Shown here: piece after piece, positions 7,582 through 63,398 of the stretch
How the letters are laid out: each line of letters starts with the position of its first letter
How positions within the stretch are numbered: position 1 is the stretch's first letter
Origin: Bacteroidetes bacterium OLB11
GTDB taxonomy: Bacteria; Bacteroidota; Bacteroidia; Chitinophagales; Chitinophagaceae
Length of the DNA: 64,000 nt
Direction: 5' to 3'
Assembly: GCA_001567165.1 (NCBI GenBank)
Contig: LNFQ01000013.1
Coordinates: 1-64,000 of the forward strand
Translations under genes and position numbers: made by a program
Notes under the pieces: generated by a model
Databases searched by the model: none
What the model was told of the DNA's origin: nothing
What the model saw: only the letters and a program-made list of their open reading frames with translations

Positions 7582-8357
7582 TTAATTGGGTACATAGTAC
7601 ACTTTTATTTTTCCAACAATAATAGGAGTTTCAATATAGATAGGAATTTTTCGTTTATCATTACTCACATAAACAGTCATTTCTTCGCCACCCCTAAAAA
7701 TAGTACCTTCAATTAGTTTTGGTTTTATTTTAAAGCAGTCAAAAGAGCCGTATTTTGTTTTAATCACTTGTTTTCCCATATATTTCAAATACAGCGAATA
7801 CATTTTATTATCGAGATATAAATCATAAGGAATAAAATCTCCCGTTTTGAATTGGTTATAATCAATATTGCGAGCGTAATAAATCATGGATAGCACATCT
7901 TGTACGCAGTCTGAAATTATTGTTTTGATATTGTTTGAAGTGGCAACATTTTTTTTCTCTATTAAAAAATTGCTTTATGATACATTTTATGACTGCCCTC
8001 TGAAACGTTTCGTGTAAATTGAATAGGGAGTAGGGTTGTCGTGTCCACAATGCTTTCATAAATATCTCGCACTTTGAAAAACCAATCATAAGAAGGATAA
8101 GTATTTCCAACTCCTGAAAGTAAAAATACTGGTTTGCCATCGTGTTTGCTAAGTGTGGTAGAAAAGGCGGCTTCTCCCGCTGGAACATAAACGCCAGCTA
8201 ATGTGTAGAATACATTGTATTTAATGAGTTCTCCATGAAAGATAGTGGTATTTTTTAGCTCACATTTTTGGAGACTTTGAGCACCTAAATTATTTATGGA
8301 AAAACTATAAAGAGTAGAGCATATTACAATTATTTTTAAAGAACAATAGCGTTGCAT
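7582..8357 (-). CDS. DUF3108 domain secreted protein (frameshifted)
   Basis: A signal peptide (ends NNLGAQ) is followed by a beta-rich domain starting GELIKYNVFYTLAGVYVPAGEA, typical of DUF3108, a Bacteroidota periplasmic family of unknown function. The frame breaks in a run of six A at 7964-7969; one added base joins HKAIF to LIEKKNVATSN and then to GDFIPYDLYLDNKMY, giving a protein of about 258 residues. It starts 3 bases after the stop of the PBP1A gene, so the two are co-transcribed, which suggests an envelope role. Confidence 0.7.
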
Positions 8358-40832: not shown

Positions 40833-42027
40833 TTAATTCATATAGTTTCTTTGTTCTGCACTTGCATCAAAAATATATTGGAAAAGTCTTTCTTCAATAT
40901 TATCAAATTCGATTTTTCTTCTTGCAAAAACACGTCTTGCTGTATCGATTGCTTTTTTTAATTGATATTCTGCCATACCACTTGCACTGCCCCAACTATA
41001 TGATGGTATGAAATTTCTTGGAAATCCTGCTCCAAAAATATTGCAACTAAATCCAACAACAGTGCCTGTATTGAACATTGTATTGATGCCACATTTGGAA
41101 TGGTCACCCATTATCAGACCACAAAATTGAAGCCCAGTTTTCACAAACGATTTTTGAGATTCGCTCCATAATTTCACTTCTTCATAATTATTTTTCAAAT
41201 TGGAATTATTAGAATCAGCTCCTAAATTACACCATTCACCAATCACACTATTTCCTAAAAATCCATCATGTGCTTTATTTGAATTTGCAATCATTACACT
41301 ATTATTTACCTCACCTCCTACTTTGCACCCCGGACCTAAAGTTGTAGCTCCATATATCTTTGCTCCCATTTTAAGAACTGCATGTTCACCCATAGCAAAA
41401 GGACCTCTTATTACACATCCTTCCATCACTTCTGCATTTCTGCCAATATACACTGGGCCTGTATTTGAGTTGATGATTGCTCCTTCGACATAAGCTCCTT
41501 CTTCAATGAAAATTTGATGGCCAATCAGCGTATTTGTGTGGGATAATGACTGTGATTCACGTCCATTTGTGATGCGTTCATAGTCTTGTCGCAGCGCTTT
41601 ATCATTGAATGAAAAAATATCCCAAAGATGATTGAGCTGCATCACTTCTTTATCATACTCTATCAGTGTACAATCTTGTGGTATTGTTTCCACTTGAAAT
41701 TTACTTGCAATGCTTTGTTCTAAACGAGCAGCCAACAAGATATTATTTGCAATCAAACAAGAATTTTTTTTTCAACTGAATTATAGCTTCAAACAGTTGC
41801 TTGTCGGGAAATAAGGCACTATTGATAAAGATATTATTTTCACTTAATTCAAACGGAAACTTTTCTTGAAGATGTTTTTGAGTAAAATAATAAGGTTTTA
41901 AACCTACAACAAATTCCCATTTTTCACGCATGGTAAGTATCCCACATCTTAATTCAGAAATAGGCCTACTGTGAGTTAGCGGCAAAAAGTGAGAATATCT
42001 TTTGTCATCAAACAGAACAAAATTCAT
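40833..42027 (-). CDS. GlmU-like putative sugar nucleotidyltransferase with left-handed beta-helix (frameshifted)
   Basis: The N-terminal part starts FVLFDDKRYSHFLPLTHSRPISELR, the degenerate nucleotidyltransferase opening of the Bacteroidota GlmU-family proteins. The C-terminal half is a hexapeptide-repeat beta-helix (GPVYIGRNAEVMEGCVIRGP, KIYGATTLGPGCKVGGEV). The frame breaks in nine T at 41764-41772; removing one base joins LKK to NSCLIANNILLAARL. Corrected length is about 397. Sugar-1-phosphate activation or acyl transfer is expected, but the substrate cannot be read from the sequence. Confidence 0.85.
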
Positions 42028-42829: not shown

Positions 42830-43486
42830 ATGAAAAACTTTATATTAAACTCCAGATTATTTATGGTTGTTTTATTATTACCTTTTATCACTTCTAATTT
42901 ATTTGCTCAAAATGCTAAGCTTGATATTTTTGATAATAAAAATCAAGTAACTTGGCTCGGAGTAGATTTTTCTGAAGTACGATTTGTAGGACCAGCTAGT
43001 GATTGGGGCGATGCAATTGTCAAAACACCAACAGAAATGAGGGATAAATATTTTCCTGCTTGGAATGATTTAATTTTGAATGAACCCAATGCATTTAAGG
43101 TAGCAGATGCAATTAATAGATCAGAAATAATCAATGATATTAGTGCTATCACAACTGTTAATAATAAAACTGATAAAAAAGATATTTTCACAGAAGACAT
43201 TTCGTCATATCAGTCACTCAATGAAAGTGCCGTTGCAAGGATGGTAAAAAAATACAATCTTAAAGACAAAAATGGAATTGGATTTTTACTCATTGCAGAA
43301 GGAATGAGTAAAGGAAAAAATGAAGCTAGCTATTGGGTTACTTTTATTGACATGCATTCAAAAGAAGTTATTTTAACAAAAAGGATGACAGGAAAAGCAA
43401 GCGGTTTTGGATTTAGAAACTATTGGGCAGGCTCCATCAAAAGTGTTTTCAAATCAATGAAAAAAGAATTTAAACATTGGGAATAG
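42830..43486 (+). CDS. Secreted protein of unknown function
   Basis: A 218-residue protein with a signal peptide ending NLFAQ. I recognise no family. The sequence WLGVDFSEVRFVGPASDWGDAI is followed by a helical middle and a C-terminal part with FLLIAEGMSKGKNEASYWVTFIDM and a basic end (SVFKSMKKEFKHWE). It is embedded between the FabZ-like and ketosynthase genes, so it may be an exported partner of their product. Confidence 0.6.
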   Translation: MKNFILNSRLFMVVLLLPFITSNLFAQNAKLDIFDNKNQVTWLGVDFSEVRFVGPASDWGDAIVKTPTEMRDKYFPAWNDLILNEPNAFKVADAINRSEIINDISAITTVNNKTDKKDIFTEDISSYQSLNESAVARMVKKYNLKDKNGIGFLLIAEGMSKGKNEASYWVTFIDMHSKEVILTKRMTGKASGFGFRNYWAGSIKSVFKSMKKEFKHWE

Positions 43487-43488
43487 CT

Positions 43489-44632
43489 TTGTTCAATCAC
43501 GCAATCTCTATTATTGACACTGCATTCATCAGTCCATTGGGATTGAATACAGAAGATAACTTTCAAGCATTATTAAACGAAAAATCTTCTATCCGAAAAA
43601 TCGATGACCCTTCATTTTACTCTCAACCTATTTTGACTTCTATCTTCGATGATGCTTTTATAAATCAATTGAAAATTGAATTGCAAACAGAAACTCGTTT
43701 CGATACCATTTTATTAAAATGTGCTGAATCACTAAAGCAAAAATCAACCATCGATTTTCAAGATAAAAAAACATTATTCATCCTATCCACCACAAAAGGA
43801 AATGTTGAATTATTAGACAAAAATGAATATTCAGAAAGATTGCCTTTTAAGTTTTTCTGCCAAAAAATTACAATCCTATTTCAACAATCCTAATGAAGTT
43901 ATAATTGTGTCAAACGCTTGTATATCGGGAGTTTCTGCCTCCATTATTGCCAAACGATTTTTAGATTATGATGACTTCAATCATGTTGTGGTTTTAGGTT
44001 GTGATGTTGTAACAAAATTTGTACTCAGTGGGTTTCAATCATTTAAAGCAATTTCAAAAAATGAATGTAAACCTTTTGATAAAAATCGCGATGGTGTTGT
44101 ATTGGGTGAAGCATCAGGTGCAATTATTTTTAGTAAAAAAATAAGTAGCGAAATTCAGTTTTTAGGAGGCTCTATATCAAATGATGCCAATCATATTTCA
44201 GGTCCTTCAAAAACCGGAGAGGAGTTGGCTTTTTGTATAAATAATGCACTGCAAAATGCGAACATCACACACGACAAAATTGATTTTGTGATGGCTCACG
44301 GTACTGCAACCCATTATAATGACGAAATGGAATCAAAAGCAATTTCATTGAATAAAATAAATAACACCCCAGTAGTGAGCATCAAAGGAAATTACGGACA
44401 TACATTAGGGGCTTCGGGAATTATTGAAATGATTACTGCTGTGGAATGTATGAAACATGGCCTTATTTTCCCAAGTTATGGTTTTGAAGAAAAGGGAATT
44501 AGTGGAGACATTTTAGTCAACTCTGTTCATCAAAAAAAGGAAATCAATTATGCACTCAAAACAACATCCGGTTTTGGTGGTTGTAATGCAGCGGCTGTTT
44601 TAGCAAAGTCTCAATCTGCAATTTATTACTAA
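43489..44632 (+). CDS. Beta-ketoacyl synthase (KAS I/II type), frameshifted
   Basis: Condensing enzyme of fatty-acid or polyketide type. The full Cys-His-His triad is visible: SNACISG, MAHGTATHYND and KGNYGHTLGASG. The frame breaks in five T at 43852-43856; removing one base joins LPFKF to SAKKLQSYFNNP. Corrected length is about 380, a little short for FabF. The start is TTG (43489, or 43477 overlapping the previous gene); no ATG is available. With the FabZ-like gene it suggests a small dedicated lipid or aryl-polyene type product. Confidence 0.82.
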
Positions 44633-46766: not shown

Positions 46767-47744
46767 TTACTTCAAACGGAATAGGCTATCGACAAATTCG
46801 TATTTGTTGAAGATTTGCAAATCCTGCATTTGTTCGCCGACACCAATATATTTGACTGGAATTTTAAACTGATGTGCGATTGCCAACACGACTCCGCCTT
46901 TTGCAGTGCCATCGAGTTTGGTAATAGCTAAGGAGGAAACGTCGGTTGTTTGAGTAAATTGCTTGGCTTGTTCTAGGGCATTTTGTCCTGTGCTTCCATC
47001 AAGCACGAGTAGCACTTCATGTGGTGCATTGGGAATTACTTTTTGAATGACTCTTTTTATTTTATTCAGCTCATCCATTAGGTGAATCTTGTTATGAAGC
47101 CTTCCTGCAGTATCAATGATTAACACATCAGCTTGTCGAGCGATTGCACTATTGACGCTGTCAAAAGCTACAGAGGCGGGGTCGCTTCCCATTTCTTTTT
47201 TTATGATATCAACACCTACTCGTTCACTCCAAATTGTCAATTGGTCAACGGCTGCTGCTCTAAAGGTATCTGCTGCACCTAAAACGACTTTTTTTTCCTG
47301 TGTTTTTAAAATTGTAAGCGAGTTTGCCAATTGTAGTTGTTTTGCCCACTCCGTTGACACCCACAACTAAAATAATATGGGGTTTGTGATCGGCTGGAAG
47401 GTCAAAATTTTGATATTCTTGCGAAGGAGCATCGGTCAATACATTCACCATTTCTTCTTGCAAGATGGAGTTTAGTTCTTTTGTGCCTAAATATTTATCT
47501 TTTGCTACTCTTTCTTCAATTCGTTTGATAATTTCTACAGTCGTTGCCACACCTACATCTGAGGTCATAAGGGCTTCTTCTAGATTATCGAGAACTTCTA
47601 CATCTACTTCTGATTTGCCGGCTATGGCTTTGGTTATTTTTTGAAAAAAAACTATCTTTTGTTTTTTTCTAAACCTTTGTCTAAAGTTTCTTTAGCCTCT
47701 TCTTGTACTTTGTTTCTTTTAAATAGTTTATCAAATAAACCCAT
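46767..47744 (-). CDS. ftsY: Signal recognition particle receptor FtsY (three frameshifts)
   Basis: SRP receptor GTPase. N-terminal acidic/basic region MGLFDKLFKRNK, NG domain with GVNGVGKTTTIGKLA (P-loop), AADTFRAAAVDQL, LIIDTAGRLHNK and TKLDGTAKGGVV. Single extra bases interrupt it in seven T at 47662-47668, eight A at 47644-47651 and eight T at 47289-47296. Corrected length is about 324. FtsY is essential, so these are very unlikely to be true inactivating mutations. Confidence 0.93.
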
Positions 47745-54307: not shown

Positions 54308-54310
54308 TTC

Positions 54311-55256
54311 TTGCAACTATCAATTGTCATACCATTTTTGAATGAAGAAGAATCACTACCTGAGTTAATCTCTTGGATAAAAAAGTGATGAATGAAAATC
54401 AATTCTCCTACGAGATTATATTGGTGGACGATGGCAGCACTGATAATAGCTGGGAGATAGTGAAAGAAATGCAAGCGAATGATACTACAATCAAAGGCAT
54501 ATCCTTTCAACGAAATTATGGAAAATCGGCAGCATTATATGTTGCATTCAAACGAGCCAAAGGTGACTATGTCATTACGATGGATGCCGACTTACAAGAC
54601 TCCCCCGACGAAATCCCATCGCTTTACCAAATGATTACAGAAGGAGGATTTGATATAGTCAGTGGTTGGAAAAAAAAGCGATATGACAATGCTTTAACCA
54701 AAAATTTACCTTCAAAACTATATAACTATATAACCGGAAAAATGAGCGGCGTGAAACTTCATGACATGAATTGTGGATTGAAAATTTACAGAAAAAAAGT
54801 TATCAAATCAATTGAAGTCTATGGAGAAATGCACCGTTATATTCCTGTATTAGCCAAGTGGCAAGGATTTACCAAAATAACAGAAAAACCTGTTATTCAT
54901 CAAGCTCGAAAATATGGATATAGTAAGTTTGGTTGGGAACGATTTGTGAATGGTTTTTTAGATTTAGCATCAATTCTTTTTGTGGGTAAATATGGAAAAA
55001 AACCGATGCATGTTTTTGGATTTTGGGGAGTCATTGTGTTTTTGATAGGGGCAGCTATTTGGATTTATTTAGCCATTGCAAAATTTGTTTTTTTACAATA
55101 CAAAATGACAGAACGCCCACTTTTTTTGTAGGGATAATCTCAATTGTAATCGGGGTGCAACTATTTTTAGCCGGATTTATTGGAGAGCTAATTTCTCGAA
55201 ACTCAATTGATCGAAACCAATACCAAATTGCAGAAGAAATCAATATAGATGATTGA
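54311..55256 (+). CDS. Glycosyltransferase family 2, membrane-anchored (two frameshifts)
   Basis: DPM1/ArnC-type GT2 that loads sugars onto polyprenyl phosphate. Starts TTG with LSIVIPFLNEEESLPELI. Metal site is MDADLQDSP, with LVDDGSTDNSW before it and GWKKKRYDN after. Two C-terminal membrane helices (FWGVIVFLIGAAIWIYLAI and VIGVQLFLAGFIGELI) match the ArnC-like subgroup. Single bases are missing in six A at 54379-54384 and in seven T at 55131-55137; corrected length is about 316. Ends 6 bases before the tRNA. Confidence 0.88.
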
Positions 55257-55262
55257 AATAAT

Positions 55263-55337
55263 GGTCCCGTAGTTCAATGGATAGAACGAAAGTTTCCTAA
55301 ACTTTAGATACAAGTTCGATTCTTGTCGGGACTACCA
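55263..55337 (+). tRNA. tRNA-Arg, anticodon CCT, with encoded CCA
   Basis: Cloverleaf by eye: acceptor GGTCCCG with CGGGACT, D stem GTTC/GAAC, anticodon stem AAAGT/ACTTT around loop TTCCTAA (anticodon CCT, reading AGG), T stem ACAAG/CTTGT with TTCGATT loop, then A and CCA at 55334-55337. The first acceptor pair is G-U. Only tRNA found in the window. Confidence 0.93.
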
Positions 55338-55433: not shown

Positions 55434-55673
55434 ATGAAAAAAGTCTTAAACACAATGATGGCAGTTTGTATGCTTGCATTATTTAGCTCTTGTGGTGAAA
55501 AACCGGTTGATCCAGCAGTAATTCAAGCAAAAGTTGATTCAATTGCCAATGAGAAAATTTCTGCATTATCTGCATCAGCAATTTCTGAATGTGAAACACG
55601 CATGGCTACTGAAGTAAAACAAAAAACAGATTCACTAGTGAATGCAGCTCAAATGGCAAATGCAGCACAATAA
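55434..55673 (+). CDS. Small lipoprotein with coiled-coil body (first of a tandem pair)
   Basis: 79 residues: signal ending FSSCGEKP, then a helix-forming region (AKVDSIANEKISALSASAIS, then CETRMATEVKQKTDSLVNAA) with a second cysteine. Its body resembles that of the next gene (AKVxxxAxxK ... C-D/E ... KxDSx), so the two look like duplicates, the second carrying an added tail. Function unknown. Confidence 0.7.
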   Translation: MKKVLNTMMAVCMLALFSSCGEKPVDPAVIQAKVDSIANEKISALSASAISECETRMATEVKQKTDSLVNAAQMANAAQ

Positions 55674-55714
55674 TTAAATCTTAATTTACAAAAACAAAAA
55701 ACAAAATTTTAAAA

Positions 55715-56215
55715 ATGAAAAACATAAAATATATGATTCTTCCTGTTCTTGCAGGAATCTTTTTTACAGCCTGCAATGAAGGAACTCAAGCACCTTCTCA
55801 ATCTGAAATTGACCAACAAGTGGAAGCAAAAGTGAAAGAAGCAACTGATAAATTAAAAGCAGATTGCGATGCTCAAATTATGAATGCTGCACAACAAAAG
55901 AAAGATAGTATTCTTGTAAGATTAGGTAAAGCAACAACTACTGTTACTAAAGTAGTACCTGCTCCAGCTCCAAAACCAGCTCCAAAACCAACAACTGCTC
56001 CACCTAAAACAAAAGAACCAACTAAAGAAGCCCCTGTTCAAAATGTTCCTCAACCAAAAGAACAACCGAAAGGTATAAAATCGTTGAGCGACCAAAACAA
56101 ACAAGAATCAGGAAAATCTGGTGGTATAAAATCGTTGAGTGACCAAAACAAAGCTCAAGAAGCGAATAAACAACAAGGTGGCGGAGGATTAAAATCGCTA
56201 CGTGATAATAAATAA
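55715..56215 (+). CDS. Lipoprotein with C-terminal GIKSLSDQNK repeats (second of the pair)
   Basis: 166 residues: signal ending FFTACNEG, a coiled body with one internal cysteine (ADCDAQIMNAAQQKKDSIL), a proline/lysine spacer (PAPAPKPAPKPTTAPPK), then GIKSLSDQNK twice and a variant GLKSLRDNK at the very end. The spacer length suggests it spans the periplasm or reaches from the surface. It follows its paralogue by 41 bases and is closed by a strong terminator. Function unknown. Confidence 0.75.
   Translation: MKNIKYMILPVLAGIFFTACNEGTQAPSQSEIDQQVEAKVKEATDKLKADCDAQIMNAAQQKKDSILVRLGKATTTVTKVVPAPAPKPAPKPTTAPPKTKEPTKEAPVQNVPQPKEQPKGIKSLSDQNKQESGKSGGIKSLSDQNKAQEANKQQGGGGLKSLRDNK
56072..56152 (+). 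repeat. Two 30-bp in-frame DNA repeats in the lipoprotein tail
   Basis: Copies at 56072-56101 and 56123-56152 differ in one base and encode GIKSLSDQNK; a third, degenerate copy starts at 56186 and ends the gene. Confidence 0.85.
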
Positions 56216-56697: not shown

Positions 56698-58071
56698 CTA
56701 TTCTTTCACAAATTTTACAACAGTTCCATAGTTCAAAGGTTTAATAAAGTAAATGCCTTTTGTAAGATTACTTATATCTATGCAATTTACTCCTTTGTTT
56801 AGTTGTTTAGTAGCCACGGTTGAACCTAATATATTTATAATATTGATGCATACAGTTTTTTCTCTATTTAGTGAAGTAGAAATGGTTTCTGCTTCAATGT
56901 TTAAAAAATGATTAGCTGGGTTAGGGTACATTTTCAGAAATGCAGTATTTTCTGATATTTCATTGAAGCCGGATGCTAAATCAAGTTTCATTACGGTTGC
57001 CTTGTCTGAGTTGCCACCATCTTGAAATGCCACATAAGGTATTTCATTTATAGGATGTAAAGCAATAGTAATATATGCTGAAAAACTTGTAGAAAACCCA
57101 GCAGAGCCTACGCTTATCCAGTCAGTACCGTTAAATTTCATAACTGTAGCTTTATATGAATTGCCTGCATCCATATAAGATACATAAGGCTCGTCATTAG
57201 AGTTTAATGCAAGAGATACATAAATTGCATTACCTGCGGAGAATCCAGCAGAGCCTACGTTTACCCAATCTGTACCATTAAACTTCATAACTGTGGATTT
57301 ATTTGAATGTCCTTCATCTTCGTAAGCTACATAAGGGACATCAGCAGAATTGAATGCAAGCGAAGTATATTCCATATCTCCAGCTGAAAAACGAGGGGAA
57401 CCTACAATGTACCAGTCGGTACTATCAAATTTCATTACGGTCACTTTTTTGCTTGAAGTATCAATATCTTTAAAAGCCACATAAGGAACATCAGCAGAGT
57501 TGAATGCAAGTGAAGGACTTCCACCAATATTTGGCGAAAATCCTGCAGGTCCCACATTGATCCAATTGGTACCATCAAATTTCATGACTGAAAGCTTATA
57601 CGAATTTCCCCCATCGCTATAAGCGACATAAGGCTCACCCAAAGCATTGAATGCAAGAGAAACATTATAAGTTCCTCCAGCTGAAAATCCTGCTACTCCT
57701 ACTATATCCCATGTTGTACCATTAAATTTCATTACTGAAACTTTGTAAGAGTTTGCAGCATCTTGATATGCAATATATAGCTCATCTGCAGGACTAATTT
57801 TAAAACTGGGATATCCAATAGCTCCAGCTGAAAATCCTGCCAATCCAACAATTTCCCAAGTTGTACCATTGAACTTCATTACTGTAGCTTTGTTTGAATT
57901 TGTTTCATCCTTAAAAGCAACGTATGGTTCTCCGGTTGAGCTAAAAGCAAATGACGTTTCATGTGCTTTTCCTGTTGTAAATCCAGCATTACCTACTGTT
58001 GTCCATTGAGCATTTAATTGTAGTGTGCCAAAACACAAAGCACATACTATTATTAGTATTAGTGTTCTCAT
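56698..58071 (-). CDS. T9SS-secreted seven-repeat, beta-propeller-like protein
   Basis: 457 residues with a signal peptide (ends GTLQLNAQ). Seven repeats of about 47 residues follow, each with a W-x-x-VG-xAGFS start, a EPYVAY-type strand and a KATVMKF end; seven such units would close a beta-propeller. The C-terminal 80 residues are a type A sorting domain (MYPNPANHFLNIEA ... LTKGIYFIKPL). Upstream is the first of three matching regulatory elements (58142-58170), so it is a likely target of the LytTR regulator at 59687. The ligand is unknown. Confidence 0.82.
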   Translation of the reverse strand: MRTLILIIVCALCFGTLQLNAQWTTVGNAGFTTGKAHETSFAFSSTGEPYVAFKDETNSNKATVMKFNGTTWEIVGLAGFSAGAIGYPSFKISPADELYIAYQDAANSYKVSVMKFNGTTWDIVGVAGFSAGGTYNVSLAFNALGEPYVAYSDGGNSYKLSVMKFDGTNWINVGPAGFSPNIGGSPSLAFNSADVPYVAFKDIDTSSKKVTVMKFDSTDWYIVGSPRFSAGDMEYTSLAFNSADVPYVAYEDEGHSNKSTVMKFNGTDWVNVGSAGFSAGNAIYVSLALNSNDEPYVSYMDAGNSYKATVMKFNGTDWISVGSAGFSTSFSAYITIALHPINEIPYVAFQDGGNSDKATVMKLDLASGFNEISENTAFLKMYPNPANHFLNIEAETISTSLNREKTVCINIINILGSTVATKQLNKGVNCIDISNLTKGIYFIKPLNYGTVVKFVKE

Positions 58072-58103
58072 TTTTTTATTTTTTTTAAGTTTTAATTAGG
58101 CTA

Positions 58104-58111
58104 CAAAAATG
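58104..58111 (-). promoter_or_regulatory. -7 like element of the propeller gene
   Basis: CATTTTTG on the minus strand, one mismatch to TAnnTTTG, inside a 15-base block (58101-58115) also present upstream of the WG gene. It is 30 bases from the proximal half-site of the element at 58142. Confidence 0.5.
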
Positions 58112-58141: not shown

Positions 58142-58170
58142 TTTCCAAACGGTATGATTTACTTTCCGAA
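58142..58170 (-). promoter_or_regulatory. Direct-repeat regulatory element, copy 1 (putative LytTR site)
   Basis: Half-sites TTCGGAAA (58163-58170) and TTTGGAAA (58142-58149) read on the minus strand, 21 bases apart, 71 bases upstream of the propeller gene start. Confidence 0.65.
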
Positions 58171-58404
58171 AGCAAGCTGAATTGAAACTATAAACGTAAT
58201 GATCTATAAAAACTGAAATTAAGTTTAAAAAAAACAATGAGTATTTTCACACCAGACACATTATGAAAGTATAGGCAGAAAGAAATGATAAAAATGAAGA
58301 AATTGATAGAATAAGCATTTTTTTTACTAAGAATCAAATAAATTATTAGGGTTTAAAGAATAGCTATTGTGTTGTCAAATATGGATAAAATGCACCTAAA
58401 GAAA

Positions 58405-58436
58405 AAAAACCTGCTTCTGAAAAGAAACAGGTTTTT
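58405..58436 (-). terminator. Terminator of the WG-repeat gene
   Basis: Arms AAAAACCTG and CAGGTTTTT around a 14-base loop, 59 bases after the stop codon. Confidence 0.65.
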
Positions 58437-58494
58437 GAAGTGGTTGGGATTGAAATTGTAAATAATATTTTTTGTTTTCAACTTGGAAAACGAA

Positions 58495-59493
58495 CTACTT
58501 TTGTGACCATCCATGATTATGAGTTCCTCCTGGATTCTTAACACTACAGCCACTTAAACCTGGAGCACCCGTATTACTTTGTACTGATTTACCACAATAT
58601 CTACAAGTATAAGTTTTCATTTCTTTAGCTGGCTTTTCTTTTTTCTCTTTAGAGTCAACTTTTTTATTATCTGTTTTAGAAGAGCTGCTTGAAGAAGATG
58701 AAGAACTTGAGGGAGAGCTACTACCTGAGCTTGCAGCACCCACATAAGTTTCTACCCCTTTTTCAGAAACTTCATAAGCTCCGCCATCTCTTTCGGTTTT
58801 GTACACTATAGGTGTGTTTATTGTCGTAAACATAAGTTGGTTATCATATTTTACTTCTGTTAAAAGTTTACCTTCATCTAAACCGTATAAACCATATTTT
58901 CCATTTTGTTTTAGGTTGAAATGTTTAGACCCATTTGAAGGAGTGAGTGGAACATCTCTTATTTGTTCATATTCTATTGGTACTAACACCTTCCCTGTAT
59001 AGTCAATTAAACCCCATTTGCTATTTTTTTTGGCAAGTAAAGCATGTGTTTTATTGGAGCTATTGTCAACCAAGGCATTATATTCAAAAGGGATAATCGT
59101 TTTCCCATCTGTACCAAGTAATCCTTTATTGCCATCTTTTTGAGCAACAATTTTTCCATTTTTCAAAAAAAGTTCTTCTTTGTATTCCAAAGGAATAACT
59201 ACTTCTCCTGTTTTGTTGATAGCTCCCCATAGGTTGCTTTCTTTTCCTTGTACAATTGCGATGCCTGCCTGTTCATCAAAATCTTTAGAGGAGCAAGTAT
59301 ATACGGGCTTAATAACGAACTTTGGTCCCATAAGTCCCTTTTTTGAGCCTTTAATAACATAGCCACAACTACCATTTCCTGCAGTTGGTTGTTTTTCTAA
59401 TTCTTGAGCAAAGCTCATGGTGCTTGCAAAAGTCATTCCTATCAAAAGTGTTGCTTTCAATACGATTTTTGTTACAGGTTTAAATTTTTTCAT
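58495..59493 (-). CDS. Secreted WG-repeat protein with Cys/His-rich C-terminal motif
   Basis: Signal peptide (TMSFAQ), then four or more WG repeats (SNLWGAINKTGEVVIPLEY, SKWGLIDYTGKVLVPIEYE, GKYGLYGLDEGKLLTEVKY) forming most of the protein. A serine run of about 20 residues follows near position 255-275, then a Lys/Glu linker and a C-terminal 38-residue motif: CRYCG, then GCSVKNPGGTHNHGW. The two Cys, one Cys and two His look like a small zinc site. WG-repeat function is not settled. Its promoter carries the second copy of the regulatory element. Confidence 0.82.
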   Translation of the reverse strand: MKKFKPVTKIVLKATLLIGMTFASTMSFAQELEKQPTAGNGSCGYVIKGSKKGLMGPKFVIKPVYTCSSKDFDEQAGIAIVQGKESNLWGAINKTGEVVIPLEYKEELFLKNGKIVAQKDGNKGLLGTDGKTIIPFEYNALVDNSSNKTHALLAKKNSKWGLIDYTGKVLVPIEYEQIRDVPLTPSNGSKHFNLKQNGKYGLYGLDEGKLLTEVKYDNQLMFTTINTPIVYKTERDGGAYEVSEKGVETYVGAASSGSSSPSSSSSSSSSSSKTDNKKVDSKEKKEKPAKEMKTYTCRYCGKSVQSNTGAPGLSGCSVKNPGGTHNHGWSQK

Positions 59494-59517
59494 TTTGTTT
59501 AAATTTTTATTATGCTA

Positions 59518-59525
59518 CAAAAATG
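59518..59525 (-). promoter_or_regulatory. -7 like element of the WG-repeat gene
   Basis: CATTTTTG on the minus strand, in the same sequence block as at 58104, 30 bases from the proximal half-site at 59556. Confidence 0.5.
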
Positions 59526-59555
59526 AAATGAATAATAGTGAGTTTTATAGGCTAC

Positions 59556-59584
59556 TTTCCCAATAGTAGAATTTAATTTCCGAA
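59556..59584 (-). promoter_or_regulatory. Direct-repeat regulatory element, copy 2 (putative LytTR site)
   Basis: Half-sites TTCGGAAA (59577-59584) and TTGGGAAA (59556-59563) on the minus strand, 21 bases apart, 63 bases upstream of the WG gene start. Confidence 0.7.
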
Positions 59585-59686
59585 AGGAAGACAAAACTAA
59601 AATTCAAAATGAAATAAGTTGTTTTAGAGAAAATTTTGTAGGAATGGTAGGATTACAGAAATATATAAAAAAGTTGGATGTGTTTT

Positions 59687-60439
59687 TTAAGCCAATTTCA
59701 ACTCTTTGAGTAAACTCTCAAAATCGCTTTTTCGCTCTCGGGCAACTGAAACCGTAAAATTATTGTCCATTGTTATTAGAGATTCGCCACGCAAATATTT
59801 TTTGATATAGCGAACATTGATAAGGTAGGAACGGTGTGGGCGGAAAATAAATTGGCGATCACTTAATAAATCTTCAAACGTACGCATCGGTTTGCTTACG
59901 GTAAATTTTGAACCATCAGCCATAAAAACATTGGTGTAGGCTCTTTCCGCTTCAAATAATACTATGTTATTCACTTCTACAAACAATAAACCATTGCTCA
60001 TTTGGAGTGCAATTTTTTGAAAGTCATTTCCGCTATAAACTTCCCTCATCAGATTCAAGCGTTGCATGGTGTTTGTTGTATTGCATTTATTCTTTACTTT
60101 ATCTATAGAAACTTTCAAACTATCTATTTCAATAGGTTTGAGTAAATAATCTACCGCAGAAACTTCAAACGCACGAATGGCATATTGGCTGTATGCTGTA
60201 ACAAAAATAATTTCAAAATTGATTTTTTTAAAAAAACCTAGCAATTCAAATCCGTTGTATTCGGGCATTTCTACATCTAGAAACACAACATCAGGGTTAT
60301 GTTTATTAATAGCTAGTACTCCTTCTGGAACAGTAGAACATTGAGCCATAATATGGATGTCGGGTGCGTATTCAGCAAGCAAAGCTGCAAGTGTAATTCT
60401 TGCATTTTCTTCATCATCAATTATAATGGCTTTTAACAT
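59687..60439 (-). CDS. LytTR-family response regulator
   Basis: Receiver domain (IIIDDEENARITLAALL, phosphorylated Asp55 in VVFLDVEMPEYNG, Lys in DYLLKPIE) and a C-terminal LytTR DNA-binding domain (about residues 145-248: NNIVLFEAERAYTNVFM, then FIFRPHRSYLINVRYI). 250 residues, intact. The paired kinase gene ends 74 bases upstream. The third copy of the regulatory element lies in that gap, so the regulator probably controls itself. LytTR domains bind direct repeats about two helical turns apart, as seen here. Confidence 0.93.
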   Translation of the reverse strand: MLKAIIIDDEENARITLAALLAEYAPDIHIMAQCSTVPEGVLAINKHNPDVVFLDVEMPEYNGFELLGFFKKINFEIIFVTAYSQYAIRAFEVSAVDYLLKPIEIDSLKVSIDKVKNKCNTTNTMQRLNLMREVYSGNDFQKIALQMSNGLLFVEVNNIVLFEAERAYTNVFMADGSKFTVSKPMRTFEDLLSDRQFIFRPHRSYLINVRYIKKYLRGESLITMDNNFTVSVARERKSDFESLLKELKLA

Positions 60440-60443
60440 AGTA

Positions 60444-60451
60444 CAAATGTT
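60444..60451 (-). promoter_or_regulatory. -7 like element abutting the response regulator gene
   Basis: AACATTTG on the minus strand, one mismatch, G five bases before the ATG, again 30 bases from the proximal half-site (60482). Confidence 0.5.
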
Positions 60452-60481
60452 ATAATTATTATGTATTATTGCTTTGTCAAA

Positions 60482-60510
60482 TTTCCCAACAGCAGATTTG
60501 AGTTTCCGAA
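60482..60510 (-). promoter_or_regulatory. Direct-repeat regulatory element, copy 3 (putative LytTR site)
   Basis: Half-sites TTCGGAAA (60503-60510) and TTGGGAAA (60482-60489) on the minus strand, 21 bases apart, between the kinase stop and the regulator start. Confidence 0.7.
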
Positions 60511-60513
60511 TGC

Positions 60514-63398
60514 TTACGTCAAATTTAAAGCACCAAAAATTCTCAAAACAACTTCTGTGCCGCTTGGATTATTGTTTTCGTATAAATCGTTTATTTCTAG
60601 TTCAATGTTTTTATGATAAGTAGAATTAATTAATGTCAATCTCTTTTGTGTGGCATCAGTTGAAAACGATGTGTATTTTTCTTGTTGACGTTTTTTTAAT
60701 TTCAGCAGAATGTTTTCGGCCTATACCATTGTCTTTAATGCGACAAAGTATATGGTTTGTTTCTTTTTCTAAACGTATGATTAATTGTTTTTCACCCTTT
60801 TTATGTAATAATCCGTGTTTTATAGCATTTTCGACAAAAGGCTGCAATAATAAAGGGGGGAGAAAAATTGCTTGGGTTTCAACCTCATTTGAAATAATAA
60901 TTTTATATAAAAAATCATTTCCAAAACGCAATTTTTCAAGTGAAAGATATAATTCTAGAATTTCAATTTCTTCTTGAATTGAAATTTCATCTCGCCCTGA
61001 AACGTCTAGTACCTTACGCATTAAGTGACTAAATTTACTCAAATATAAATTGGAGTTTTTAATATCTTGTTTTAAAATTAAGGCTTGTATGCTATTGAGT
61101 GTGTTGTACATGAAATGTGGATTCATCTGAGCTTTAAGGGCTGTTAATTGCAGATGTGCGAGTTTGCGTTTTTTGTTTTTCTTTTCGGCGGAAGTTGGTT
61201 ATATTTTTTGTACTATAAAAAAAATCAATATGGTTGAAAGGAGTATTAAAAGTAAAGTAAACCACCACGTTTTCCAAAACGGTGGGTTGATATAGCCTTC
61301 CAATTTAATTATATTTTCTGAATCTCTGCCTAAATAATCAATGGCTTTCAATTCAATTTCAAAATTTCCTATCGGTATGTTTTGGATTTCTATTTGTTCA
61401 ATTGTGGCAGGTAATTTTATCCATTCATTTTTATTTAAACGATAAGCATATACAAATTGACCGTTACTACTGTAATGTGCTACTTCGGGGTGTAAAACGA
61501 AAGCTTCATTATAATTGAATTGAAGTTGATCTATTGGAAATTTAAAATTATTTTTGAGATAAACTCTTGCAAGTTTTTGTTGTTGCTCTAATTTATTTAG
61601 TGGAATTTTTTGTAAGCCATTTACAGTTACAAGCCACAAGTTTGAATCTACTATTGTGATATCTTGTACATTGTCAGATACAAGCCCCAATAGGCGATTG
61701 ATAAATTTTAATGAATGTGTTTTTGGATCAAAAAATTGCTACTCCTACATTGCTACTGATGTATAATTTGTCTTGATAAATTTGTAATTTATTTGCTTGT
61801 ATATTTTCTGGTATTTGTAGAAATTCAGATGTTTCATTTTGACTATTTACTACAAAAAATTTGACCTGTGAAGGTTAGTACATAAAGCAATTTTTTATCT
61901 ACATCAAAATCAATAGAAATAATTTGAGTATTGGACAAAAGAGTGTCTGATAAATACCATTCGTTGTTTTTGGATATAATTTTTAGTAAGCCACTATTTG
62001 ACGCAACCCATAAGCATTGATTTATTACATCATATTCGATTTGCCTTGCCCAATTCGTGTTAATTCGTTTCCCATTGATATAAGTGCCGTATGTAGAGGT
62101 TGCGAATAAAGAGCCATTGACACTTTTTGCTGACTTTATAGCAGGAATATTATCATTATTAATTTCGCTTATTGCATTTCCCTTCAATTTAAAAAGATGA
62201 TTGTTGATATTGAATAAAAGAGCATTCTCTGAAGTATTGTAATCAAAGCTTTGTATGTCGGCATTGTGCTTGGTGTGAAATAGTTCGGTAGTTTCATTCA
62301 GAAGATTCAATCTTCCGATTTCTCCTTTTTGGCTTGCAAAAAAGATGTGTGTTTCACTGTTTGTTACACGTGTAAGTTTGTTGTATTGCTTCCACACTAT
62401 AAAATGCAAATTTGGTACACGCAAAATACCTTCTAGTAAAGTTGTAAACCAATAATTTCCTTCTTGGTCAATTAAACAATCAGAAAAAGATAAGTCAGGA
62501 TAAAGCAAAATAGCAGAATCTGTATTTGGTGTATAACGGATGAGCCCACTGTATGTGCAAATCCACAAAGCACTATCTCTCATTGTTCTTACATTGGTAA
62601 TTTTTTCTACCAGATAGGATTTTGTTAAGTTGAGAATTTTTTTATTTGCTCTAAATGATTTTTTTGAAAAACGATAAATATTTTCAGTTTTCCTTAGCAA
62701 AAATCCATAAGACGTCAGAATAAGTTTCAAGTTCAAATTTGCCCGATGTGATGCTTTCAAATAATTCCGTGTTGTATATTTGTTTTAGTTTGTTATTTTC
62801 TATAGTTGCAACTCCTTTTGAATAGATAAATGGGATGACGTCACGTCCATTTCCTTTTACTGATTTTGCAGTCAATTGTTCGTTATTGTTTTTTTTCTAT
62901 ATTGCCATAATTTATATAATTATTCCATTGTTTACTTTTTTCGCTATAGCGAGAAATGCCACCAAAATGTGTTGCGTAAATATTCCCATTATTATCGGAA
63001 ACGAGATTGTTAATGAAGCCTTTTGGAAAAGGATGTTTTATTTCTTTTAACGTATCATTTTCTAAGCAGAATAATTGTGATTGAAAATTATAACAGTAAA
63101 TATTGCCAGAAGAAGAAATTGTTAAACCTGTAATTGGTTTTGAATTTTGCGTTTTACTTTTATATGAAGTATAATGCACGCCATTAAATTTATACAGCCC
63201 AACATTGCATCCTATCCAAATAAAACCATTATTATCTTGAACAATACTATATACTTCATTGCTCGGCAATGCATTTTCACTATCATAAGCAATGTATTGA
63301 GGATATTGAGCAAACACATTGAAAGTGGTCACGATTAGTAATGAAACAAGTATGTAAATAAATTTCTTCAAAAGGTTCTGTTTGTAATAAATTTTCAA
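60514..63398 (-). CDS. Reg_prop/Y_Y_Y sensor histidine kinase, LytS-type (multiple breaks)
   Basis: N-terminal signal (LIVTTFNVFAQ) from a TTG start (63398 or 63371), then two-component-propeller repeats (GFIWIGCNVGLYKFNG, ALWICTYSGLIRYTPN, CLWVASNSGLLKI), a Y_Y_Y domain (FVYAYRLNKNEWIKLP), one membrane helix and a His_kinase/HATPase pair: AQMNPHFMYNTLNSIQAL (phospho-His), LQPFVENAIKHG, DNGIGRKH. Single extra bases in A/T runs break it at 62889-62896, 62698-62701, 61854-61859, 61730-61735 and 60691-60697, and an in-frame TAA lies at 61199-61201 just after the membrane helix. About 960 residues when joined. Cognate partner of the LytTR regulator. Confidence 0.85.

Follow-up and report, generated by a model that had tools for sequence, protein, structure and literature searches.

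The window, a stretch of 64,000 nucleotides, belongs to a genome of 2,188,196 bp in 72 contigs (92% complete), and its distal part carries a response regulator gene between a sensor kinase gene and two genes for predicted exported proteins:

56698 to 58071, minus strand: predicted secreted beta-propeller-like repeat protein, 457 aa, with a signal peptide and a Por_Secre_tail domain
58495 to 59493, minus strand: WG-repeat protein, 332 aa, with an apparent signal peptide, a serine-rich linker and a C-terminal Cys/His tail
59687 to 60439, minus strand: LytTR response regulator P0001, with receiver (5-112) and LytTR (151-244) domains and an FRPHRS motif
60514 to 63398, minus strand: sensor histidine kinase gene encoding Reg_prop, Y_Y_Y and His_kinase/HATPase domains in that order, split by frameshifts

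In P0001 a LytTR domain (PF04397) follows a receiver (PF00072), at 59.4 and 68.4 bits, above the curated cut-offs. Its FRPHRS (FRxHRS) motif stands where AgrA has FFRCHNS, and the conserved DNA-contact histidine, H202 in P0001, is invariant in 15 sequences; a PDB search gave receiver-domain matches only, among the 60 matches listed. The propeller protein carries the sorting domain of type IX secretion (T9SS) cargo (PF18962 Por_Secre_tail, 51 bits), and no sorting domain was found in the WG protein, for which the domain search gave WG repeats only. The regulator gene comes after the kinase gene, whose product has Reg_prop, Y_Y_Y and His_kinase domains. The partner of P0001 appears to be this propeller-type sensor kinase, the pair forming a two-component system, which adds to the initial annotation of this DNA.

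As assembled, the kinase gene is broken by five frameshifts and one in-frame stop, and four of the five frameshifts coincide with homopolymers of A or T at least six long. Similar interruptions, in some cases at homopolymers, affect further genes in the window:

7582 to 8357: DUF3108 gene, split by a frameshift
40833 to 42027: nucleotidyl transferase gene, split by a frameshift
43477 to 44632: ketoacyl synthase gene, split by a frameshift
46767 to 47568: ftsY, split by a frameshift
54310 to 55257: family-2 glycosyltransferase gene, shifted, by inspection

The contig assembly thus probably carries indel errors and, because ftsY and at least four other window genes are also frameshifted, the breaks in the kinase gene are probably assembly error, which is likelier than decay. 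Two adjacent small genes at 55434-56215, downstream of tRNA-Arg(CCT) (55263-55337), encode predicted exported Ala/Gln/Lys-rich proteins, the second with KSLSDQNK repeats.

The initial annotation had described three 29-bp minus-strand elements preceding the propeller, WG and LytTR genes, and we confirm them, with their sequences, exactly at these positions:

58142 to 58170, minus strand: LytTR-type direct-repeat element 1, TTCGGAAA-N13-TTTGGAAA, 5' of the T9SS propeller gene
59556 to 59584, minus strand: LytTR-type direct-repeat element 2, TTCGGAAA-N13-TTGGGAAA, 5' of the WG-repeat gene
60482 to 60510, minus strand: LytTR-type direct-repeat element 3, TTCGGAAA-N13-TTGGGAAA, 5' of the regulator gene in the kinase-regulator gap

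Each of the three genes (starts 58071, 59493 and 60439, respectively) has one element as its nearest upstream, and element 3 starts 3 bp past the kinase stop codon. Recounting returned the identities first given, 20 of 29 columns invariant across the copies and 24 positions shared by copies 2 and 3, with 23 shared by copies 1 and 2 and 21 by copies 1 and 3. The half-sites TTCGGAAA and TTKGGAAA lie exactly 21 bp apart in all three, also as annotated.

A search of the whole genome for TTCGGAAA-N13-TTKGGAAA found these three exact matches, each upstream of a gene, none at one mismatch, and 19 at two mismatches, where the reversed-pattern control gave 9. When the element was combined with the TTTGTA box described below and up to three mismatches were allowed, the genome returned only these three sites (control 0). 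All genomic sites fall within 2.4 kb around the P0001 gene, which one of them precedes. The annotated restriction of the elements to these genes holds for the genome as for the window, making the regulon a local one that has no site beyond this locus. A two-mismatch site at C68:6616, resembling copy 3 (22/29), was dropped as a chance match because it lies inside a long intact 597-aa reading frame. The other LytTR loci of the same genome are without this element, and a pattern search did not find it in 13 other genomes of the same genus. For one of those LytTR loci, on contig C5, an 11/12 direct repeat with a 21-bp period and other half-sites, AAACCTACCAAT...AAACCAACCAAT (L124 12998-13137), was seen about 3 kb away between divergent genes; a second LytTR protein is a candidate binder of this repeat.

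Bacteroidota commonly encode LytTR regulators. The LytTR consensus consists of two copies of [TA][AC][CA]GTTN[AG][TG] (WMMGTTNRK-like) with 12 bp between them, giving a period of 21 or, less often, 20 or 22. The six half-sites of the window align in register with this consensus as two 9-bp half-sites separated by 12 bp, matching at 7+9, 8+7 and 7+7 of 9 positions in elements 1, 2 and 3; the downstream half-site of element 1, ACCGTTTGG, matches throughout (9/9), and several others fit imperfectly (7/9). Consensus scoring was used only alongside other evidence because it is weak alone, a score of 14/18 at 21-bp offset occurring 830 times in 128,000 positions. LytTR repeats with 12 bp between are known to be placed just upstream of promoters (PMC6193735), and the three elements have a further feature of this kind that the initial annotation lacked, a TTTGTA sequence starting exactly 34 nt past the last base of the element in all three promoters:

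58102 to 58107, minus strand: TTTGTA -7 box core of element 1 (CATTTTTG, read as TAnnTTTG)
59516 to 59521, minus strand: TTTGTA -7 box core 34 nt past element 2
60442 to 60447, minus strand: TTTGTA -7 box core 34 nt past element 3

TAnnTTTG is the Bacteroidota sigma-A -7 box, located at -12 to -5 in mapped Flavobacterium psychrophilum promoters (PMC9723704), and TTTGTA holds TTTG, the conserved part of this box. By the F. psychrophilum -7 geometry the elements would span about -71 to -43, centred at -57, and transcription is predicted to start at about 58099 for the propeller gene (leader about 28 nt) and about 59513 for the WG gene (about 20 nt). For the regulator gene the predicted +1 falls on the A of the ATG (0-nt leader), i.e. 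a leaderless mRNA, a class that makes up 5.5% of messages in F. psychrophilum (PMC9723704). The -7 boxes are imperfect, one base off consensus, and none of the three promoters shows a recognisable -33 box, as would be expected if they depend on an activator. A fixed upstream distance to the promoter, characteristic of LytTR sites, is thus seen here at 34 nt in all three cases and at 33-34 nt in most sites of relatives.

No close P0001 homologue was found in the genus, the best being 44-55% identical and coming almost entirely from elsewhere in the order, outside the family; a contig scan with P0001 as query gave unrelated response regulators only. The homologues in other families adjoin genes for exported proteins, many with a T9SS sorting tail (Por_Secre_tail in family f9), and when 12-bp direct repeats were counted upstream of 148 genes in the loci of these homologues, window excluded, they peaked at period 21 with 21 genes; shuffled sequence gave 1.4, and none of 18 other periods had more than 5 genes (range 0-5). 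This enrichment comes from the relatives, as a count over all ORFs of the window itself shows no peak at period 21 (7 at 21, 12 at 18, 9 at both 22 and 30). Less related LytTR loci are also raised at periods 20-22 (7, 11 and 6). Representative sites read TTCGTAAA-N13-TTCGTAAA in G044 and G063, TTCATGAA-N13-TTCATGAA in G126 and TTCACAAG-N13-TTCACAAG in G088, with period 22 instead in G099 and some G063 and G044 sites, and TTTG lies 33 or 34 nt beyond the repeats in most aligned sites. A regular expression for the whole architecture, repeat and TTTG, gave 21 matches in 14 loci of relatives, where shuffles expect 0.1; some of the 21 are one repeat counted again, from the opposite strand or through loci that overlap. 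The comparison with relatives that the initial annotation had proposed thus finds the same geometry beside homologous regulators in other families; the GGA core of the window half-site TTCGGAAA was not seen in sites elsewhere. An order-wide pattern, CATTCRTGAA-N11-CATTCRTGAA, was discarded as too strict (1 of 299 genomes matched). In genome G390 a LytTR regulator has, about 6 kb away, a 692-aa gene preceded by a perfect 12-bp direct repeat of period 21, TTGTCCGTTTTG, with a LytTR-like TCCGTTTTG (L090 1401-1433).

The architecture was also sought without reference to genes, by searching each of 20 genomes whole for TTYRTRAA-N13-TTYRTRAA followed by N33 or N34 and TTTG. In these genomes, mostly picked for holding P0001 homologues, there were 17 matches compared with 2 for the reversed control, and 14 of the 17 lay within 11 kb of a P0001 homologue. 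An ORF starts 6-48 nt downstream of 16 matches, the seventeenth lying near a contig end, and these ORFs encode exported proteins or lipoproteins, the exceptions being a kinase and a LytTR regulator. The match at this regulator stands 82 bp upstream of its gene (G044 C1:321542, L139), where the element, N34 and TTTG leave only 6 nt to the ATG, an arrangement that by its sequence would be autoregulation through an almost leaderless message, like that of the window's regulator. The three unlinked matches, in three species of genus g43 (L126, L135 and L137), precede short lipoproteins of 136-140 aa that are similar in sequence, and these genes are a possible conserved distant target.

The letters of the half-site may also vary with the regulator. 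By path length, the closest regulators to P0001 in the tree are those of G099, G044 C4 and G063 (moderate support), and the G044 C4 and G063 half-site, TTCGTAAA, is one base from TTCGGAAA; half-sites of more distant regulators read TTCATGAA, TTTGTGAA or TTCACAAG. That half-site letters follow the regulator tree is only suggestive, because the sample is small and the same G044 and G063 loci also hold period-22 sites reading TTCATGAA/TTCGTGAA.

Together the consensus fit, the 34-nt distance, the geometry at homologous loci and the tree support the initial proposal of a LytTR regulon with P0001 as its binder, and we consider it most likely that a P0001 dimer, phosphorylated by the kinase, binds the three elements and activates its own gene and those for the WG and propeller proteins. 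We infer each part of this reading, namely binding by P0001, activation rather than repression, and phosphorylation by the adjacent kinase. In such a mechanism the Reg_prop/Y_Y_Y sensor kinase would phosphorylate P0001 on an extracellular cue, and a P0001 dimer would bind each pair of half-sites on one face of the DNA, 21 bp being two helical turns. Bound at about -71 to -43, the dimer could contact RNA polymerase and activate a weak sigma-A promoter, switching on the genes for the WG-repeat protein and the T9SS-tailed propeller protein, both predicted to be exported, and, from the promoter in the kinase-regulator gap, raising its own transcription in a positive feedback.

The same sites might be bound by another LytTR protein, of which the genome has about four besides P0001, or by an AraC-family protein, as AraC sites, too, are direct repeats with a spacing of about 21 bp, and the 21-bp period alone does not single out LytTR. 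We regard this as improbable given the confinement of all genomic sites to the 2.4 kb around the P0001 gene, one of them preceding it, and the recurrence of the geometry beside P0001 homologues in other families. The half-sites moreover follow the P0001 tree, in a small sample, and a repeat of another sequence (AAACCTACCAAT) lies near one of the other LytTR proteins. There is a similarly small chance that P0001 is a repressor of these genes (negative autoregulation), or that it acts without being phosphorylated, the kinase being dead. A dead kinase would agree with the five frameshifts and the stop in the gene as assembled, but these are better attributed to assembly error given the frameshifts in ftsY and the other window genes; repression is countered by sites that end near -43, leaving the -33/-7 region free as in LytTR activation, and by the imperfect -7 boxes. 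Least probable, and in our view barely credible, is that duplication of a single promoter left the elements as passive copies that play no part in regulation. Copies 1 and 2 do also have the -7 region and leader in common (TTTCATTTTTGTAGC), yet copy 3 shares with them only the element and the box, the rest differing. Half-sites and spacing are kept while spacers differ between copies, and the same architecture recurs in other families with other letters.

Activation of the three genes by phosphorylated P0001 remains our preferred reading. We see an even chance that Bacteroidota possess a LytTR two-component subfamily dedicated to exported-protein genes, whose promoters follow a single rigid grammar (half-site, 21/22-bp period, 33-34 nt, TTTG), with drift confined to the letters of the half-site, which change along with the regulator. 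If so, genome sequences would reveal local regulons and a protein-DNA recognition code. With its geometry fixed, the architecture makes targets of such LytTR regulators simple to predict, and pairs of a site and a diverged regulator could help to work out DNA reading by the beta-strand LytTR domain. This kind of LytTR site is known, and the three sites here are new instances. In the literature searched, most subscription journals lying outside it, no paper was found to combine such sites with exported and T9SS cargo genes and the rigid promoter geometry of Bacteroidota; that literature held only one predicted LytTR site pair for Bacteroidota, in Bacteroides LRS-like operons, without a link to T9SS cargo.

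Transcriptional control tied to the type IX system is also exerted by PorXY/SigP, which regulate T9SS genes. To our knowledge PorX stands outside the LytTR proteins and acts on the T9SS machinery, whereas the targets here are single cargo-type genes beside the regulator. Like regulators of the AgrA/VirR/ComE type, P0001 combines a receiver with a LytTR domain, its sites comprise two 9-bp half-sites with 12 bp between and lie upstream of weak promoters, and autoregulation is likely; the AgrA repeats centre near -60 (PMC4227749), compared with about -57 predicted here. The present system differs from that type in its Bacteroidota sigma-A promoter with a TAnnTTTG -7 box, in its exported targets, one with a T9SS tail, in a half-site extended by AAA, and in its kinase, which has a Reg_prop propeller in place of an AgrC-like sensor. 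With the LytTR Regulatory Systems (LRS), including the LRS-like operons predicted in Bacteroides thetaiotaomicron and B. ovatus (PMC6193735), it shares direct repeats with a 21-22 bp period that immediately precede a Bacteroidota promoter (in B. thetaiotaomicron TCCGGTATTCA/ACCGGAAATCA, period 22) and a proposed autoregulation. An LRS, however, comprises a regulator without a receiver and a co-transcribed inhibitory membrane protein (PMC6193735), and P0001 falls outside this definition, pairing instead a receiver-LytTR protein with a histidine kinase.
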